From NCBI RefSeq assembly GCF_000212735.1, contig NC_015510.1, positions 1,426,001 through 1,490,000 of the forward strand: a stretch of 64,000 bases of DNA, written 5' to 3'. Source of the stretch: Haliscomenobacter hydrossis DSM 1100. GTDB lineage: Bacteria; Bacteroidota; Bacteroidia; Chitinophagales; Saprospiraceae. Shown in pieces: positions 29,160 through 36,146 of the stretch. Numbering within the stretch: position 1 is the first letter of the stretch; the number at the start of each line of letters is the position of its first letter. The position numbers were made by a program, and so were the translations under genes. The notes beneath the pieces are model-generated. The model was given only the letters and a program-made list of their open reading frames with translations, had not been told where the DNA came from and searched no databases.

Positions 29160-30275
29160 TTATTTGACTTTAGCGTCGAATAAAAACACGCCAATTCCCA
29201 GGCGGAGGCTCAAATTACCCAGGGTGAAATCATTGTCGACGTAGTGGAAATCATCGATGACCAATCGTTCTGCTTTTTCTTTGCGCAGGCTTTGCAAGGT
29301 TTGGGTATATTGGGCATCCAGCAAAAAAAACACTCGCCGCAGGTGCAATTTGAGACCAGCTCCAACCAGGGCGGAAACCGTATTGGAATTCCGAAAGCGA
29401 TCAATTCTTTGTGAACTAGCCACTAATGGAACGGAAATATTGGAATACTTTAAGTTCAAAGCGGGAAGTTTGGCAGTACCCCGAACCAGGTGATCATAAC
29501 TCCCTCCAAATTTGATGTAGGGGATCAAATATCGATTGACAATTTCTGCACGAGGAACCAGGTTATACGACAAATAGAGCGGAGCGCGGAGCCAAATGTG
29601 TTTTTCAGCGACAAAAAGGGCTGCACGATCCAATTCACCGGTGGGATTCGTCACATTTTCCAACTCCATTAAATAACGAAACGAATACCGCGAAATATTG
29701 ACGCCAACATGGAGATCAAAACGGGAATGTCGATTTAGCGCCAGTCCAACCTCCGTGCCAGCATGGTAGCCCCAATCAATGTCAAAGTCACCATCTGCTC
29801 CTTTGAAACTGTATTTTCGATTGGCAAGGGTAGCGCCGGGGAAAACTTCTGCACTTTTGAAATTAGGTTTTGAAAAAAGATACACCCCGAAAAAGCCGGA
29901 AATTTCTACGCCCGGATAATTGATCACCTGTTGGCGTAAATAGCGCATTTCAGGGATCTCCTGGTTTACTTTATAAAAAGGGTCAATATGTAAAAGTTCC
30001 AGCAGTGCCCCCTGAGCCAAACGGGTACTGTCCATAAAGATATAGGCCTCCGCCGCCATATTGAGTGCGGTGCGGCGAGTAACGCGGTTTTGGCCCCGAT
30101 CAAACGGACAAGTACCCAACGTTTGGATGACCTGGCTGAGTTTGCCTTTTTCGTACAATTGACTGGCTTGAGAGAGGCGCTCCAGGCAACTGTCGATCTG
30201 GCTGTAAGAGAGCGAAGCCCACAGCAACAACAGCCCTGCCAGTCCCCCGCGACGGATGTTTAATTCCCACCACAT
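29160..30275 (-). CDS. Outer-membrane beta-barrel protein of the STAND operon
   Basis: 371-aa exported protein. A signal peptide (IRRGGLAGLLLLWASLSYSQ) leads into a helical segment with a TPR-like feel (CLERLSQASQLYEKGKLSQVIQTL). From about residue 120 it becomes beta-rich and ends in alternating strands typical of PorT/OmpA-like barrels (SGFFGVYLF, RFDLHVGVNISRYSFRYL, LSLRLGIGVFLF). The ATG at 30275 lies inside the 3' end of the WD40 gene, a 16-base overlap, so the two are translationally coupled; a longer frame to 30317 would lack a sensible signal peptide start. This makes it the fourth member of the CHAT-STAND-WD40 operon. Function unknown; it may be a surface sensor or an exit point. Confidence 0.75.
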   Translation of the reverse strand: MWWELNIRRGGLAGLLLLWASLSYSQIDSCLERLSQASQLYEKGKLSQVIQTLGTCPFDRGQNRVTRRTALNMAAEAYIFMDSTRLAQGALLELLHIDPFYKVNQEIPEMRYLRQQVINYPGVEISGFFGVYLFSKPNFKSAEVFPGATLANRKYSFKGADGDFDIDWGYHAGTEVGLALNRHSRFDLHVGVNISRYSFRYLMELENVTNPTGELDRAALFVAEKHIWLRAPLYLSYNLVPRAEIVNRYLIPYIKFGGSYDHLVRGTAKLPALNLKYSNISVPLVASSQRIDRFRNSNTVSALVGAGLKLHLRRVFFLLDAQYTQTLQSLRKEKAERLVIDDFHYVDNDFTLGNLSLRLGIGVFLFDAKVK

Positions 30276-32575
30276 ACTTTCTGCTGTTTTATGTCTGTAC
30301 CAAAAAAACGACGCCATTCGTTGGTTTCCATTTCGTCATACCGGGGGCTGAGGTAACGCAAGCGCAATTGGCTACAAAGGTGTTCGGCGTACACCCGTGG
30401 ATCAAGGTTCCAAAAAGCGACTTCCCCGTTTTTGGTACCCACCAATAAAAAGCGATCATCGGGGGAAAAACAAAGCGAGGTAGCCCAACCTTCATGGTCT
30501 TCCAGCAACAAGGGTTGGTAAGTGGGGTCACTTTCGGAAATTTTCAAGTCCCAAAGCGTAGCCCTTCCATCCAAACTTGCGGCGGCCAGATAGCGGCCAT
30601 TGGGGCTAAAAGCCAAATCAACGATGGGTGACTGGTTTTGTTTAAACAAAGATACCAGGTTATTGATTTCCAGGGTAGCCACATCATCCATGCGGCCCAA
30701 TACAATTTGCCCGTTCTGAAAGCCAAATGCCAACAAACCTGCACCGTCGAGTTGTTCCGCTACCAGCGCGGTAAGTGCCCCGTAATTGCTTTGTGCCGTG
30801 ATTTGACGGGTTCCTCGGTCCTGCCGCAACATCCGGCCATTGATTAATCCTTCAATACTGAATTCGGTTAAGTTATCCCGATAAGAAAATTGAGCACTCA
30901 ATGGGACAACTCCCTGGCTGGTTTCCAAAAAGGTACTCACGCCGGAATTGATTTTAGTAATCTCGCGTATAGGCGCATTTTCATCCCGTAAAAAATAGGC
31001 GTGCGTACGACCCATCCCCACCAGAGCGCCAGTGTTGTTGAGAAAACTAGCCGCAAAAATTTCTTCGCCCCCTTTTCCTTTTGGCCAGTCAAAATGTTTG
31101 ATCATTTTGTTGCCAAAGTTGTAGACTTGCAAGCTTCCCAATTCTCCACCGACCAATAAGCGGTCGCCATTGGGGCTAAGTGCAAGTGTATTGTGCACGG
31201 CGTCTCCATCAAAGGGAAGTTCACTACTTTGGTGTGCGGGTACACCCAGGGCATTCCATTCGTCAATGTCCCATTGCACCACTCTCCCATCACTACCAGT
31301 GGTAAAAAACCTGCGACCATTGGGCTGAAAAACAATATCCCGCACCGAACCACCGTGGGTTTTGGCCCGGAAACGGATGGCGGGGTCTACATCTTTTACG
31401 GCATAGTATAAGGCATTGTAAATGTAGGGATGCCGCGTGAGGCCCAACTCCGGCGATGCACTCACGATGTTGTAGGCCTGTCGGGCTACCAGCGCCTGCA
31501 AGCGGGCATCGTCGAGTTCCTGGCTTTTGAGGGCGGCATTCAGCGCTACTACGGCGTTGCTGAATACGATGGCGCGTTGGCGGGCCAACAAGGCATTTTT
31601 TTCCGCGTTTTGAGCTTCGATGCGCAGTCGTCCCGCATTTTCGGCAGAGCGCACAGCTTCGGCTTCCGCGCGACGAGCGGATTCTCGGGAGCGGATGGCG
31701 TCGTCGGCTTCTCGTTCGGCGCGGGCTTTTTCGGTTTGGGCTTTTTTGGCGTTTTCGTTGGCACGAGTGGCTTCGGCTTTGGCCTTGGCGGCATTGGCTT
31801 TAGCCACCACCAAAAGGGAATCTGCCCTACGTGCTTCGGCAATGGCAAAACGCAGGTTTTCCTGTGCTTCTCTATTTAAATACCGTTCGCTTTCCACCGC
31901 TTGACTCAAACTATCCCGGCTCCCTTTTAGCTCTTCGTTTTTTTCGGCCAATTCAATCGATTTGCGCCTGGTTTCACAAGTTTGAATACCAGCCAATAAG
32001 GCCATGGCCATTATTGCGGTAATAAACAGGGTCAACAAAAATCCCCTTCTGCGTTTTCTGCGTAGAATTTGATCTCTTGATTCCTTGACAAACTCGGCCT
32101 CCTCATTGGGCAGCTCCAACAAATCCAGAGAAGAGGTGATGTAATTCAAATAATGTTCATCCAAAAATTCCTTGCGCGCCATGCGGTCGCGAATCGTGGA
32201 GCGCATGGTGCGTAGCACCCGGTTTTCGGCTTCTACTTTTTGGAAAGCCCGTTGCGCCAGGAGGTTATTGCTCAACTCGTATTTTCCACCAGGGGTTTTG
32301 CGCAACAAACTGGCGCCGGCCATCTGCTCCAAAATCCTTTGCACCATCATGCGGCTAATGCCTTTTTTGGTGTACAGTTCTTCGGCGATCTTTTCTTCGC
32401 CGAGTTGTAAACGATTGCCTCCCTGTACAAACATGGACAAAACCTTGTTGCCCATACCCCGGTATTCCTCCCCCAGGATGGTTTCGATTTCGCGCACTTG
32501 CTGGTCGAGCAAGTCTTCCACAATGTTGTTGCCACTACCGATACGGTCGAGGCTGTCAATCGTGATTTTTTTCAA
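30260..32575 (-). CDS. Winged helix-TM-coiled coil-WD40 protein
   Basis: 771-aa transducer. Residues 1-110 continue a STAND module: ITIDSLDRIGSGNNIVEDLLDQQ corresponds to VIFDHELVNEIGRIEDVLRDFLDEQ of the upstream protein, and a winged-helix-like region follows (EKIAEELYTKKGISRMMVQRILEQMAGASLLRK). A basic RRKRRR patch and one membrane helix lie at about 178-198, then a long Ala/Glu/Arg-rich coiled coil (about 200-340) and WD40-type blades to the C-terminus (VRDIVFQPNGRRFFTTGSDGRVVQWDID; VDLAFSPNGRYLAAASLDGRATLWDLK; ATSLCFSPDDRFLLVGTKNGEVAFWNLD). The start is TTG, overlapping the TGA of the STAND gene. The domain break inside the STAND module means the two genes may be one frameshifted gene. 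Confidence 0.8.
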   Translation of the reverse strand: MKKITIDSLDRIGSGNNIVEDLLDQQVREIETILGEEYRGMGNKVLSMFVQGGNRLQLGEEKIAEELYTKKGISRMMVQRILEQMAGASLLRKTPGGKYELSNNLLAQRAFQKVEAENRVLRTMRSTIRDRMARKEFLDEHYLNYITSSLDLLELPNEEAEFVKESRDQILRRKRRRGFLLTLFITAIMAMALLAGIQTCETRRKSIELAEKNEELKGSRDSLSQAVESERYLNREAQENLRFAIAEARRADSLLVVAKANAAKAKAEATRANENAKKAQTEKARAEREADDAIRSRESARRAEAEAVRSAENAGRLRIEAQNAEKNALLARQRAIVFSNAVVALNAALKSQELDDARLQALVARQAYNIVSASPELGLTRHPYIYNALYYAVKDVDPAIRFRAKTHGGSVRDIVFQPNGRRFFTTGSDGRVVQWDIDEWNALGVPAHQSSELPFDGDAVHNTLALSPNGDRLLVGGELGSLQVYNFGNKMIKHFDWPKGKGGEEIFAASFLNNTGALVGMGRTHAYFLRDENAPIREITKINSGVSTFLETSQGVVPLSAQFSYRDNLTEFSIEGLINGRMLRQDRGTRQITAQSNYGALTALVAEQLDGAGLLAFGFQNGQIVLGRMDDVATLEINNLVSLFKQNQSPIVDLAFSPNGRYLAAASLDGRATLWDLKISESDPTYQPLLLEDHEGWATSLCFSPDDRFLLVGTKNGEVAFWNLDPRVYAEHLCSQLRLRYLSPRYDEMETNEWRRFFGTDIKQQKVCGGN

Positions 32576-34434
32576 GTGCTCAGCAATTTGTACATGTATA
32601 GTTGCAAAAAGGTCAGATTGACCTTACCATCTCCTTCGGTTACATTTTGTAAAATTCGATCCATGACCTGCTCGTCTTCCACATCGAATTTGGCGTAATG
32701 CAGGTTGCGGCGAATGACTTCCGCAGCGCCGTACCGATCCAAATGTTTAACGCGCATTTGCTCCTCCAGGATACCCGGAATAAATGATTCAAGGTCTTGC
32801 AAGTTGGCAAAAAATTCGTCACGGATCACCAATACCAAATCACAATTGTAATGCCCATCGATCAAATGGGCGAGATGGCGGTAGAAGAATTCCAATTGGG
32901 CACTTTCGGTCACCCAGATGAAAACTTCTTCCAACTGATCAATGGTCAAAATTTTGCGTTCATCGGTATTCAAGGTTTTGCCCTCTTCGCCAAAAAACAA
33001 TTCCAAAAATCGGGGGGGATCTTTCTTTAGGGGAGGGCCCAAAAATAGTTCGTTGAAAACGGGCAGTTCAAATAGCTCCCGACTCAAGGCCAAATACCCC
33101 GTGCGGAACAACTGCTGTACCCTCGGCATTAAACCCGCCCGGATAAGCGAGGTTTTGCCCACCCCAATGGGGCCAAAAACCAGGGTAGAACGCACCGCAG
33201 TATCGTTGATGACTTTGTCGAATAGTTCGCGGATGTCTTTGTCGCGCCCAAAAAACAACTCCGCCATTTCCGGGTTATAAGCTGCAAAATTGACAAAAGG
33301 ATTGGATGGAAGCTGTTTTGCCGGCACGGTCAAAGGCATGGGAATACCCACCGTTTTGGTTTGGGAGAGTTTTAGGGCCAAACTATCGTGAATCAGTTCG
33401 TATTGGTCACTGTCCAGGGGGCGCAAAATGCGGTGGTTGACAAAGAATTGCAAATAATTGAAATGTTTGAGGCGGCCCAATTCGGGCATGGCGCGCTCGA
33501 TGTCTTGCCGTTTGATGGGTATTTTAGTGCCTTTGTCCGAAACGAATAATTTCAACCACTTTAGTCCCAATTCTTTGGTGTCAACTTCCAGCGCAAAAAC
33601 ATCGAGTTGTTCGTCCAGAAAATCGCGCAGGACGTCTTCAATCCTGCCAATTTCATTGACCAATTCGTGGTCAAAAATCACTTTGTCACCGCCCCGCAAA
33701 GCGGCTACCCGGTACAATTTATCCAAAAAGACCTGGAGGTAAGTCAGTTGTACCCGCCCCATGCCTTCGGTTACTTTGTCGATGATGGTTTCGGCCACCT
33801 GTTCATCGCTCAAGGTCACCTTGATTTTTTCACTGTGCAGGGTATTGATGATCACCCGGCGGGCATTGGCGCGGCTCATGGGTTCTACCCGCAGGCGTTT
33901 GTCAAATATTTGGGGAATCGCCTTTTCAAAACCAGACAAGTGCCCCAGGTATTCTTCGCGGATCACAATGATGATTTTGCAGGGGAGTTCGGCTACGAGT
34001 AGTCTTTTGATGGTTTTGACAAACATGGCCTCCTCTTGCGGCGACCCCAGGATAAACAGTTCTTCAAATTGGTCAAAAATGAGATAGATCGGGCGGAGGT
34101 AATCCAAATACAGGGAGTGGATCATTTTATCCGCCGTAAAGTCTGCTTCAAATGAGCTTTCCAGGTCGTGTTTTTTCAATTCATCACAAAACGCGTCATT
34201 GAGGTTGTTTTTGCGCCGAATGGTGATGTCAAACAAATCGCTGGACTCAAATTTTCCGGCAAGGCCGCATTGCACCAAACTGGTTTTGCCCGTGCCCGAT
34301 ACCCCGTAAACCAGCAGTAAGTTGGTTTGAAAGCTCATTTGGTATAGCGATTCCACCTCCTCTTCACGTCCGAAGAAGATTTCAGTATCGGCTTTACCGT
34401 AAGCATCCAAAAACTTGAAAGGTGTACGGGTCAT
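32572..34434 (-). CDS. Tandem nSTAND1-type P-loop NTPase
   Basis: 620-aa protein with two STAND NTPase units. Unit 1: FLDAYGKADTEIFFGREEEV, P-loop GVSGTGKTS (44-52), Walker B YLIFDQFEELF (D121), sensor-like IIVIREEYLG, and a winged-helix tail with LIHDSLALKLSQ near residue 350. Unit 2: NPFVNFAAYNPEMAELFFGRDKDI, P-loop GPIGVGKTS (421-429), Walker B LTIDQLEEVF (D499), LVLVIRDEFFANL. Unit 2 stops after LTFLQLYMYKLLST, where unit 1 would go on into its winged helix; that part appears at the start of the next gene. nSTAND1 proteins are NTP-driven switches of bacterial conflict and signalling systems. The start overlaps the CHAT gene stop (ATGA). Confidence 0.85.
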   Translation of the reverse strand: MTRTPFKFLDAYGKADTEIFFGREEEVESLYQMSFQTNLLLVYGVSGTGKTSLVQCGLAGKFESSDLFDITIRRKNNLNDAFCDELKKHDLESSFEADFTADKMIHSLYLDYLRPIYLIFDQFEELFILGSPQEEAMFVKTIKRLLVAELPCKIIIVIREEYLGHLSGFEKAIPQIFDKRLRVEPMSRANARRVIINTLHSEKIKVTLSDEQVAETIIDKVTEGMGRVQLTYLQVFLDKLYRVAALRGGDKVIFDHELVNEIGRIEDVLRDFLDEQLDVFALEVDTKELGLKWLKLFVSDKGTKIPIKRQDIERAMPELGRLKHFNYLQFFVNHRILRPLDSDQYELIHDSLALKLSQTKTVGIPMPLTVPAKQLPSNPFVNFAAYNPEMAELFFGRDKDIRELFDKVINDTAVRSTLVFGPIGVGKTSLIRAGLMPRVQQLFRTGYLALSRELFELPVFNELFLGPPLKKDPPRFLELFFGEEGKTLNTDERKILTIDQLEEVFIWVTESAQLEFFYRHLAHLIDGHYNCDLVLVIRDEFFANLQDLESFIPGILEEQMRVKHLDRYGAAEVIRRNLHYAKFDVEDEQVMDRILQNVTEGDGKVNLTFLQLYMYKLLST

Positions 34435-36146
34435 GATAAAAGTTTATGAAAAAAACCGTCAAAAAGCTCGGTCACCACGGGGTAGTTTTCGCCAGTAATG
34501 TTCAAAGTATCTTTGAGATTATCGATCAAGGTAAAATGCAATTCTTTTCCTTCGCGGCTGGTAAAAAAGAACAATTTAGAATTTTGCTGCCCCGAAAGTG
34601 CATTTTCATCCAAAATAAACGGAGACAAATTGAGCGAAGGGTTAACCGTTTCTTCATCGCGCATGAGAATCACCGAGTTGTTGTCGGTATAGTCCAAGGC
34701 CTCCAACACATCATCTAGCACCCCTATTGCGGCAGTAAGTTGGTTCAACACCACCAAATTATGCCGAAAGCGGGGCGTATTGTGCCGCGCTTTGACCAAT
34801 TCAATCATCTTGATGGTGGCCAAAGTGTATTTTGCTGCAAAACCAATGTGGCTGAAAATGACGCACAATTTGTCTTCACCCTGCACACAGAAACTCTCAA
34901 TTTCATCGGCGGCTACTGCGCCCATGAGCTCACGTTTCATTTCTTCTAAAAAAAGCACTGCGGTTTGTAGTTCGGGTTCTTCCTGATATTGTTTGCGCAG
35001 GGTAGCAAATTCTTCCACAAACAGTACGGTGCTGTTTTCGGCTAAGGTATCCCCTAAAGCCTGGATGAGGTTCACAAAGTTGTACACCTGGCTGTCTGCT
35101 GTCGACAGTGCAAAAAAAGAATCCAGCGCCGCCTGGGTATTCGGTAAAACCTTAAACTTGGGGTCGTTGTGCTTTTCATCCCAAGTTTGAGCCATCAATA
35201 CGTAGGCCAAAAACTGCGAGGAAACCTGATAAAGGTTTACAATTTTTTGCAAACGATCGGTACCAATTTCTTCCGCAATGAGCAGCTTGCGCAAATGCAT
35301 CCCGATCGGGGTGGGAAAAGAATCGATCACGGCTACCCTCAGGTCGCGCATTTTGGGCTCACGGCCTTTCGATTTTGCTTCTTCCAGAATCATCCGAATG
35401 CCCCGGCTGAAGGGGGCAATGGCATTGGCAATGGTCATGACCAACTTCTGGTTGATCACTACCCCACTTTGGTATTTCATCCCCGCCCCCCTGACAATGA
35501 AGGAGGCTGCACTTTGGCGGGGCATTTTCCAGTTCAGCACCGCTTCTTTGCCCTCGGTAATATAGAGTCCCCAGGGCAGTACCTCGGTTTCTTCTTTGCG
35601 TACCCGCACTCCCCGGTTAATGCCAGCGGCCTGGCCGCTAGACATCAGGTGATTAGCTGCCGCTAATTTATACGCTTCTTCGAGGGTATGGTCTTCGGCA
35701 AGTGCCCGGTAAAATACATCGGAAAAGGTTCTGGCCGATTGATCGGCGATGGGAATTGAAGTAGCAATGATGGCGGGGATACCCAGTTCTTGCAACAGTG
35801 CAACTTGAGCACGGGTAGAACAGCCATTGAGAAAAACCAATTTGATTTCTTTTTGCAAAGCCAAAATCTGGGCAATTCCGTCGGCGTTGGCCGCCTGATC
35901 CTGCAAAAAAATTTCTTTGCTGCCCGCATGTCCACCGTAATGAAAAAGGTTGATCCGGTCTTTCAGGTCAGTGACGAAGCGGCTGATGTCCGCAATTGTA
36001 GCGGAGGGTTCGATGACCAACTGTACATATTGTTGGTTGGCCAAGGGAAGCAAATGCCCGCTAATGACCTTTCTTTCCTCGTCCAGTAGGGGCAGGTGGT
36101 CATCTTTGTCATTGGCAAAAGCCAAAAAAATTACGGGTTGCTTCAT
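34431..36146 (-). CDS. CHAT-domain caspase-like protease
   Basis: 571-aa protein beginning with a CHAT (caspase HetF-associated) peptidase domain, about residues 1-195. Motifs: ISRFVTDLKDRINLFHYGGHAG with catalytic His (H73, or H69) and IKLVFLNGCSTRAQVALL with catalytic Cys (C109), then IPAIIATSIPIADQSARTFSDVFYRAL. The C-terminal ~375 residues are helical with no known domain and could bind the STAND partner. No signal peptide, so it is cytoplasmic. CHAT proteases are known effectors activated by STAND or CRISPR-type sensors. First gene of a four-gene minus-strand operon; it overlaps the STAND gene by 4 bases. Target protein unknown. Confidence 0.85.
   Translation of the reverse strand: MKQPVIFLAFANDKDDHLPLLDEERKVISGHLLPLANQQYVQLVIEPSATIADISRFVTDLKDRINLFHYGGHAGSKEIFLQDQAANADGIAQILALQKEIKLVFLNGCSTRAQVALLQELGIPAIIATSIPIADQSARTFSDVFYRALAEDHTLEEAYKLAAANHLMSSGQAAGINRGVRVRKEETEVLPWGLYITEGKEAVLNWKMPRQSAASFIVRGAGMKYQSGVVINQKLVMTIANAIAPFSRGIRMILEEAKSKGREPKMRDLRVAVIDSFPTPIGMHLRKLLIAEEIGTDRLQKIVNLYQVSSQFLAYVLMAQTWDEKHNDPKFKVLPNTQAALDSFFALSTADSQVYNFVNLIQALGDTLAENSTVLFVEEFATLRKQYQEEPELQTAVLFLEEMKRELMGAVAADEIESFCVQGEDKLCVIFSHIGFAAKYTLATIKMIELVKARHNTPRFRHNLVVLNQLTAAIGVLDDVLEALDYTDNNSVILMRDEETVNPSLNLSPFILDENALSGQQNSKLFFFTSREGKELHFTLIDNLKDTLNITGENYPVVTELFDGFFHKLLS

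Follow-up and report, generated by a model that had tools for sequence, protein, structure and literature searches.

Four genes occupy positions 29160-36146 of a 64,000-nucleotide stretch of the Haliscomenobacter hydrossis DSM 1100 genome (contig NC_015510.1, positions 1,426,001 to 1,490,000; hereafter the window), where they lie on the minus strand and encode, in order, a predicted CHAT protease, a chain with tandem nSTAND1 modules of the STAND nucleoside triphosphatase (NTPase) type, a chain that joins an arm, a transmembrane (TM) helix and a coiled coil to a WD40 propeller, and a predicted outer-membrane barrel (Table 1). The host is a sheathed member of the Saprospiraceae (PMC3156403) with a genome of 8,771,651 bases, including plasmid-sized contigs of 164,019 and 143,757 bases. 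An initial annotation of this DNA had described four successively overlapping frames together with their motifs, and on re-inspection all of these were confirmed: genes 1 and 2 overlap by ATGA at 34431-34434, genes 2 and 3 by TTGA at 32572-32575, with TTG as the start codon of gene 3, and genes 3 and 4 by 16 bases (30260-30275), given a start of gene 4 at the inner ATG (30275) that is backed by the two closest homologues. Two congeners, G004 (L104) and G001 (L115), share the TTG start and the 4-base overlap of genes 2 and 3 (here and below, G labels denote genomes, with G000 the window's own, and L labels denote loci). Because genes 2 and 3 are separated by 29 to 130 bases in six other orthologues, a programmed frameshift between them was rejected.

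Table 1. Features of the four-gene cassette, in window coordinates
Feature	Position	Strand	Basis
Gene 1: CHAT cysteine protease (activity predicted) and conserved C-terminal domain	34431..36146	(-)	Pfam, alignment
Gene 2: tandem nSTAND1	32572..34434	(-)	Pfam, motif alignment
nSTAND1 module a, complete	about 33349-34434	(-)	within gene 2
nSTAND1 module b, NTPase core only	about 32575-33279	(-)	within gene 2
Gene 3: arm of nSTAND1 module b, juxtamembrane helices, one TM helix, coiled coil, WD40 propeller	30260..32575	(-)	
Arm of nSTAND1 module b (helices and winged helix) on gene 3	32231..32575	(-)	profile-profile match
TM helix of gene 3, basic N-side (RRKRRR)	31985..32041	(-)	hydropathy, charge
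WD40 propeller of gene 3, predicted periplasmic	30263..31585	(-)	Pfam
Gene 4: signal peptide, TPR-like helical domain (barN), small outer-membrane barrel	29160..30275	(-)	

Pfam recovered CHAT (25.9 bits, against a cut-off of 24), nSTAND1 (223.4 bits over two stretches) and WD40 (83.4 bits) in the window proteins and gave no match for the gene 4 protein, and an NCBIfam scan of the four proteins returned nothing above cut-off. The cassette does not correspond to any of the known anti-phage systems in PADLOC 2.0.0, in which gene 2 had weak P-loop matches only (best 27.6 bits) and genes 1, 3 and 4 had no match at E 0.1.

The CHAT part of gene 1 (residues 1-215) carries H73 and C109 and is followed by a conserved C-terminal domain (residues 216-571). 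These two residues, which the initial annotation had taken as catalytic motifs, are not degenerate across homologues; both are conserved in all 46 distinct rows that could be evaluated, the window included, which remain when 12 rows that repeat a contig and 2 without the region are taken from a total of 60. The closest solved CHAT sequence is PDB 8tl0 (E 1.2e-19), named as the SAVED-CHAT protease of type III CRISPR (PMC11417357), whose catalytic His and Cys align in register with those of the window protein. By profile and His/Cys dyad, gene 1 encodes a CHAT-family protease, with proteolytic activity as a prediction. PDB matches of its C-terminal domain were weak (E 0.03-0.07) and were put down to chance.

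Gene 2 has the profile and the Walker A and B motifs of the nSTAND1 STAND NTPases, together with an arm that includes a winged helix. The two P-loops read from the sequence at the outset (GVSGTGKT and GPIGVGKT) are present, and both they and the two DQxEE Walker B motifs are intact in all eight aligned orthologues, the window included; a degenerate second NTPase was dismissed on the intact motifs of module b. A profile-profile comparison matches the first ~115 residues of gene 3 to the module a arm (88% probability; score 42.1, where the best of 30 column shuffles reached 18.2), and by this match the border between genes 2 and 3 is shown to cut the predicted second STAND module between its NTPase core and its C-terminal arm. 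The winged helix that had been assigned to gene 3 is therefore present but is really part of the nSTAND1 arm of module b. Two further cassettes (L080 and L121) have a single nSTAND1 cut at about the same point as module b, and in L080 the N-terminus of the sensor matches the STAND arm directly (E 5e-9).

In another set of sister systems the break falls slightly later than in the window, within the winged helix. Every one of the 10 short single nSTAND1 genes in the surveyed loci stops before a conserved ELxHDxLA element; in 8 of the loci (all but L097 and L131) at least one same-strand gene begins with this element and mostly continues with a TM helix near residue 85. There are three such sensor genes per core in L092 and in L094 and two in L095, and three more loci with nSTAND1 and a sensor (L286, L287 and L288) stand outside the 10, having been retrieved via sensor matches. 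Among 1123 open reading frames without another model match, 9 carry ELxHDxLA near their start, every one of them a sensor-type gene of the surveyed loci. Three unlinked sensor genes (L279-L281) occur in the genome G040 on stretches of 10-15 kb that contain no STAND gene, and its CHAT core (L097, 14 kb) has no sensor gene beside it. G059 and G025 each have one sensor on a short stretch (L282 and L283) in addition to one linked sensor; the contigs with unlinked sensors partly end close by, and linkage may extend beyond the contig end. Several sensor genes per core, some of them unlinked and all starting with the missing piece, point to one CHAT/STAND core that would be served by several exchangeable sensors. 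A search for orphan sensors in the window genome gave three matches at E 1e-8, each beside or within a STAND gene, and the idea of orphan sensors there was rejected.

The initial annotation had placed the WD40 chain at the inner membrane, and this is borne out by the predictions. A TM helix beyond residue 30 is present in 96 of 99 distinct proteins of the sensor or nSTAND1-WD40 type, the three exceptions coming from Chitinophaga species. Of the 96, 92 have no second TM helix, and 92 carry more Lys/Arg before the helix than after it, with ties in the remaining 4. Since the N-side of the TM helix of gene 3 is basic, its N-terminus is predicted to lie inside, with STAND and CHAT, and its WD40 propeller in the periplasm. 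The same genome contains two loci, L016 and L012, that encode WD40 on its own chain with a signal-like N-terminus, the TM helix being borne by the STAND chain. The window WD40 part has 87% protein identity to that of the paralogous locus L002 (2464-4575), with 81.5% identity at the DNA level over 1.5 kb, and the CHAT and nSTAND1 cores of the two loci have only 28% and 43% identity. As the window WD40 is closer to this paralogue than to the congener G004 (76% identity), the comparison suggests exchange of sensor domains between cassettes of one genome.

An AlphaFold2 model of gene 4 built from 8 rows (pLDDT 85.6) contains a signal helix, a helical TPR-like domain, here termed barN, and a barrel. 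Foldseek matched the model to OmpA, OmpW, OmpX, NspA and other outer-membrane barrels at E values from 1e-4 to a best of 6.4e-07, with modest TM-scores by query (at most 0.36). Signal peptide and predicted fold place gene 4 among the outer-membrane beta-barrels, which backs the exported barrel first proposed from the sequence. Assignment of gene 4 to a known Pfam family was dismissed for lack of a match to the window member; one homologue, in L190, passes Pfam PF13568.

Pairing of this barrel with WD40 and STAND genes recurs well beyond the locus, in keeping with the outer-membrane partner that had been claimed for it. The barrel is present in 16 of 148 related genomes, with a WD40/STAND gene adjoining in 14 of the 16 (not in G026 and G059). 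A phylum search with the barrel alignment gave matches in 21 of 395 genomes; six near full-length barrels outside the order, from three genomes of one family, all come after an nSTAND1-TM-WD40 gene, and three further matches (G192, G288 and G326) cover the barrel part only, the one that was retrieved (L192) having no STAND gene nearby. A class search with the fused nSTAND1-TM-WD40 protein gave 23 matches in 19 of 395 genomes among the best two candidates per genome, and an exported barN partner lies nearby in 16 of the 21 loci that could be evaluated (G702 and G795:C246, both cut by contig ends, are excluded). In six loci (L190, L191 and L193-L196) the nSTAND1-TM-WD40/barrel pair is followed by a lipoprotein-like protein of 426-472 amino acids and a protein of >2100 amino acids and preceded by a protein of ~1050 amino acids, with HEAT repeats in L191, the one scanned, an arrangement that amounts to a larger conserved operon.

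The barN domain also occurs on a second type of outer-membrane protein. In five loci (L202, L203, L206, L207 and L235) it precedes the plug and barrel of a TonB-dependent receptor beside an nSTAND1-TM-WD40 gene, and these domains match the barN of small barrels with a probability of 98.4% and a score of 87.9 (30 shuffles: at most 15.5). Across all distinct loci collected, 31 of 35 small barN barrels have a WD40/STAND gene no more than three genes away, as do 5 of 5 TonB-type genes and 2 of 9 small genes with barN only; these counts are not a free sample because many of the loci were retrieved via STAND or CHAT queries. Lone exported barN proteins adjoin Ser/Thr kinases with PEGA repeats in three loci (L199:9093-9716, L201:8663-9472 and L205:10110-10739), and given these neighbours barN may serve inner-membrane signalling proteins more generally as a partner in the periplasm.

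The cassette itself recurs. Among relatives and named genomes we counted 17 distinct tandem-nSTAND1 CHAT loci (the window; one each in G001, G002, G003, G004, G018, G026, G033, G048 and G057; two in G058; and L108, L109, L111, L114 and L140). A WD40 gene comes next in 15 of the 17, and the barrel comes next in 11 of the 15 cassettes with a WD40 gene; the four-gene operon of the initial annotation is thus a recurrent unit in which the barrel is not obligatory, and chance co-location of the four genes was dismissed. The cassettes of G001 and G002 are broken over contigs and were scored from pieces, the CHAT gene is only partly on the contig in L078 (G057), L111 and L114, and the count leaves out CHAT fragments or contig-end genes (L057, L058, L117, L124, L130, L137 and L139) as well as loci without tandem nSTAND1. 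The CHAT gene of G001 appears in two overlapping frames (L075:2560-4250) in a fragmented assembly, where an assembly error is possible.

The effector position is occupied by different domains in related systems. In L016 an EAD11 domain (74 bits) replaces CHAT and is followed by the same C-terminal domain (E 1.4e-30), and a TIR-family gene lies directly upstream of 8 of the 23 nSTAND1-TM-WD40 matches; the Pfam TIR_2 cut-off is passed by three of these (L245, L247 and L248), L191 and L196 score below it, L194 is called by close kinship to L191, and L233 and L234 are tied in through the family profile alone. CHAT, EAD11 and TIR-family proteins in comparable positions, and several paralogues per genome, parallel what is described for nSTAND1 conflict systems, in which effectors (caspase, TIR, EADs) interchange and paralogues are multiple (PMC8195603, PMC7159879); EADs are described there as joining effectors to counter-invader cores (PMC8195603). 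These swappable effectors are the strongest argument from sequence for a conflict role. The window genome has 26 CHAT matches, 25 of them above the cut-off; contigs C2 and C3, both of plasmid size, carry two apiece. Caspase (Peptidase_C14) genes adjoin CHAT-nSTAND1 cores in L131, L133, L119 and the own-genome locus L012, and L012 carries a patatin-like phospholipase alongside its caspase gene.

The comparisons establish the predicted parts, their conservation, the split in module b and the pairing with a barN outer-membrane protein, and the interpretation that we consider probable, with appreciable doubt, is a STAND switch, split between chains and spanning the envelope, that has a caspase-like (CHAT) protease under its control. 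In the resting state, the tandem nSTAND1 chain in the cytoplasm would bind the arm given in trans by gene 3 and stay ADP-bound, and the WD40 propeller of gene 3 would dock in the periplasm onto barN of the gene 4 barrel. Phage or toxin binding, outer-membrane damage or a similar change at this barrel would be relayed from barN through the WD40 propeller, the coiled coil and the TM helix to the arm, whose release would free the NTPase for nucleotide exchange and oligomerization. The STAND oligomer would in turn cluster and activate CHAT bound through its C-terminal domain, and active CHAT would cleave its substrates. Because EAD11 or TIR-family proteins stand in for CHAT in sister systems, this cleavage would most probably be a conflict response of the abortive or alarm type. 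We infer every arrow of this scheme, from the signal at a barrel or TonB-dependent receptor to CHAT activation; an immune function of the cassette is likely, and phage defence is what we infer for it.

Several observations weigh against this scheme. Gene 2 has no relative in the PDB (phmmer, E 0.01), and topology and signal peptides were judged by hydropathy and charge. No WD40 gene lies next door in L109 and L111, and an adjacent barrel is absent from G018, L108 and L114, with no barrel match in the G018 genome at E 1e-5; in G026 the barrel is on another contig. There is no barN in 5 of the 21 nSTAND1-TM-WD40 loci and no STAND or WD40 gene near 7 of the 9 small barN-only genes, so that barN is not exclusive to the CHAT/STAND system. 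The phylum barrel search scored at most four candidates per genome and the class search the two best per genome, and because the query rows of the class search were taken from loci with the pairing, its model may lean to paired loci.

The history of the locus falls on the same side. In the window, in G001, G002, G004, G033 and G018 and in L108 and L114, glgP is the immediate neighbour of the cassette or is one gene removed, and in G026 it adjoins the barrel that stands alone; the stretches examined for G003, G048, G058, G057 and L140 gave no glgP match. An upstream GMC-oxidoreductase pair is kept in all four congeners examined (G001, G002, G003 and G004). With these neighbours kept, the locus looks old and, within part of the family, vertically inherited, which sets it apart from most mobile defence genes. 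A siting near known defence genes, raised in the initial annotation, was not found: the neighbours, compared with the window's own only and with no defence-gene scan across all relatives, are housekeeping genes and often conserved. The CHAT protein had no match among 72,556 plasmid and 50,697 phage records, in which near host records are perhaps absent; relatives of its catalytic domain do occur on contigs C2 and C3 of the window genome, and the cassette does not have the character of a mobile defence-island system. In genomes outside the genus, the CHAT catalytic part keeps 56-63% identity to that of the window and nSTAND1a 56-62%, about the pace of the neighbouring glgP (59-60%, three genomes), but WD40 keeps only 30-37% and the barrel 26-33%. 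This order of divergence fits a conserved effector core with a divergent sensor end; fast divergence is expected of any surface protein.

As the locus looks old, often lies beside glgP and bears no signs of mobility, a role in envelope-stress or developmental signalling is a serious rival, although we regard it as unlikely. The barrel would then report the state of the outer membrane or sheath, and limited CHAT proteolysis of a regulator, for example an anti-sigma factor, would alter expression with no immunity or killing. Synteny suits this role at least as well as an immune one, with glgP beside the cassette both in congeners and in other genera, and the glgP-like pace of CHAT and nSTAND1a, the plasmid and phage collections without a match and the barN-like proteins beside PEGA-repeat kinases all speak for it. 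What counts against it is the exchange of the effector for EAD11 and TIR-family proteins, the presence of several paralogues per genome and the filamentous habit of the host, conflict systems being described as preponderant in multicellular prokaryotes (PMC7159879).

We hold it improbable that the cassette is a conventional STAND conflict system sensing in the cytosol, with a cytoplasmic WD40 propeller and the barrel a mere neighbour. WD40 is a usual cytosolic STAND sensor, 4 of the 15 cassettes have no adjacent barrel, and the kinship is with nSTAND1 systems described as intracellular; yet a single N-in TM helix is predicted ahead of WD40, the WD40 chain of L016 appears exported, and barN partners accompany most nSTAND1-TM-WD40 loci (16 of 21) and are found on TonB-dependent receptors as well. 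A barrel that acts not as a receptor but as a substrate of the protease system, or as its transport partner, would agree with the co-occurrence of the genes, which does not fix the direction of the signal, but is very improbable, since the CHAT and STAND chains of the window have no TM or signal helix by hydropathy and should not reach the barrel, and since barN on TonB-dependent receptors is as expected of a receptor adaptor.

Beyond the window cassette, the envelope-spanning switch could be one of a class, a proposal that we advance tentatively. In such split STAND switches one cytoplasmic CHAT/nSTAND1 core would be completed in trans by any of several membrane sensors, each with the missing winged-helix end or the whole arm, and a common barN adaptor on small barrels or TonB-dependent receptors would link the periplasmic propellers to the outer membrane.

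As in the nSTAND1 conflict systems (Kaur et al. 2021, PMC8195603; Kaur et al. 2020, PMC7159879), the NTPase stands between an effector or EAD and a sensor, and H. hydrossis is itself named in that work for another system with 11 paralogous copies; those systems are described as fused proteins, whereas that of the window is split. The term "outer membrane" is absent from the main texts of both papers, and "split" and "TonB" from the main text of PMC8195603. SAVED-CHAT protomers are described as stacking, with a nucleotide messenger bound by SAVED as the trigger where the window system has a STAND NTPase, and its description includes no membrane parts, unlike the window system (PMC11417357). The sensors of multicellular bacteria diversified by diversity-generating retroelements (PMC10907252) likewise join nSTAND1 or NACHT to sensor domains, and one such locus has a second target predicted to be periplasmic, the closest precedent found; their sensor is a C-type lectin fold diversified by reverse transcriptase, unlike that of the window, and their description includes neither a split STAND nor an outer-membrane barrel. 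A search of the open-access literature, mostly titles and abstracts and with few subscription papers covered, returned no split STAND with exchangeable sensors and no STAND wired to an outer-membrane protein. The window system may also be likened to FecA-FecR-FecI, in which an outer-membrane receptor, bearing a periplasmic signalling domain at its N-terminus, communicates with a protein of the inner membrane; in the window the inner-membrane part has WD40 and a STAND arm instead, and the output would be an NTPase-gated effector and not a sigma factor. Judged against the literature so covered, the kind of system is already known, and the split, exchangeable-sensor design with an outer-membrane partner is the new part.

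The best-known bacterial STAND (NLR-like) sensors act inside the cell. If the proposed switch and its wider class are borne out, an NLR-like switch would be gated from the cell surface and several envelope signals would feed one protease, and bacteria could respond to phage adsorption or other events at their surface by arming a protease for death or alarm. Such wiring of many sensors to one effector suggests a resemblance to sensor and helper NLRs. Because the arm sits on its own chain, the system would offer a clean route to testing how the STAND arm controls activation, and the barN domain would provide a handle for finding further surface-wired systems.

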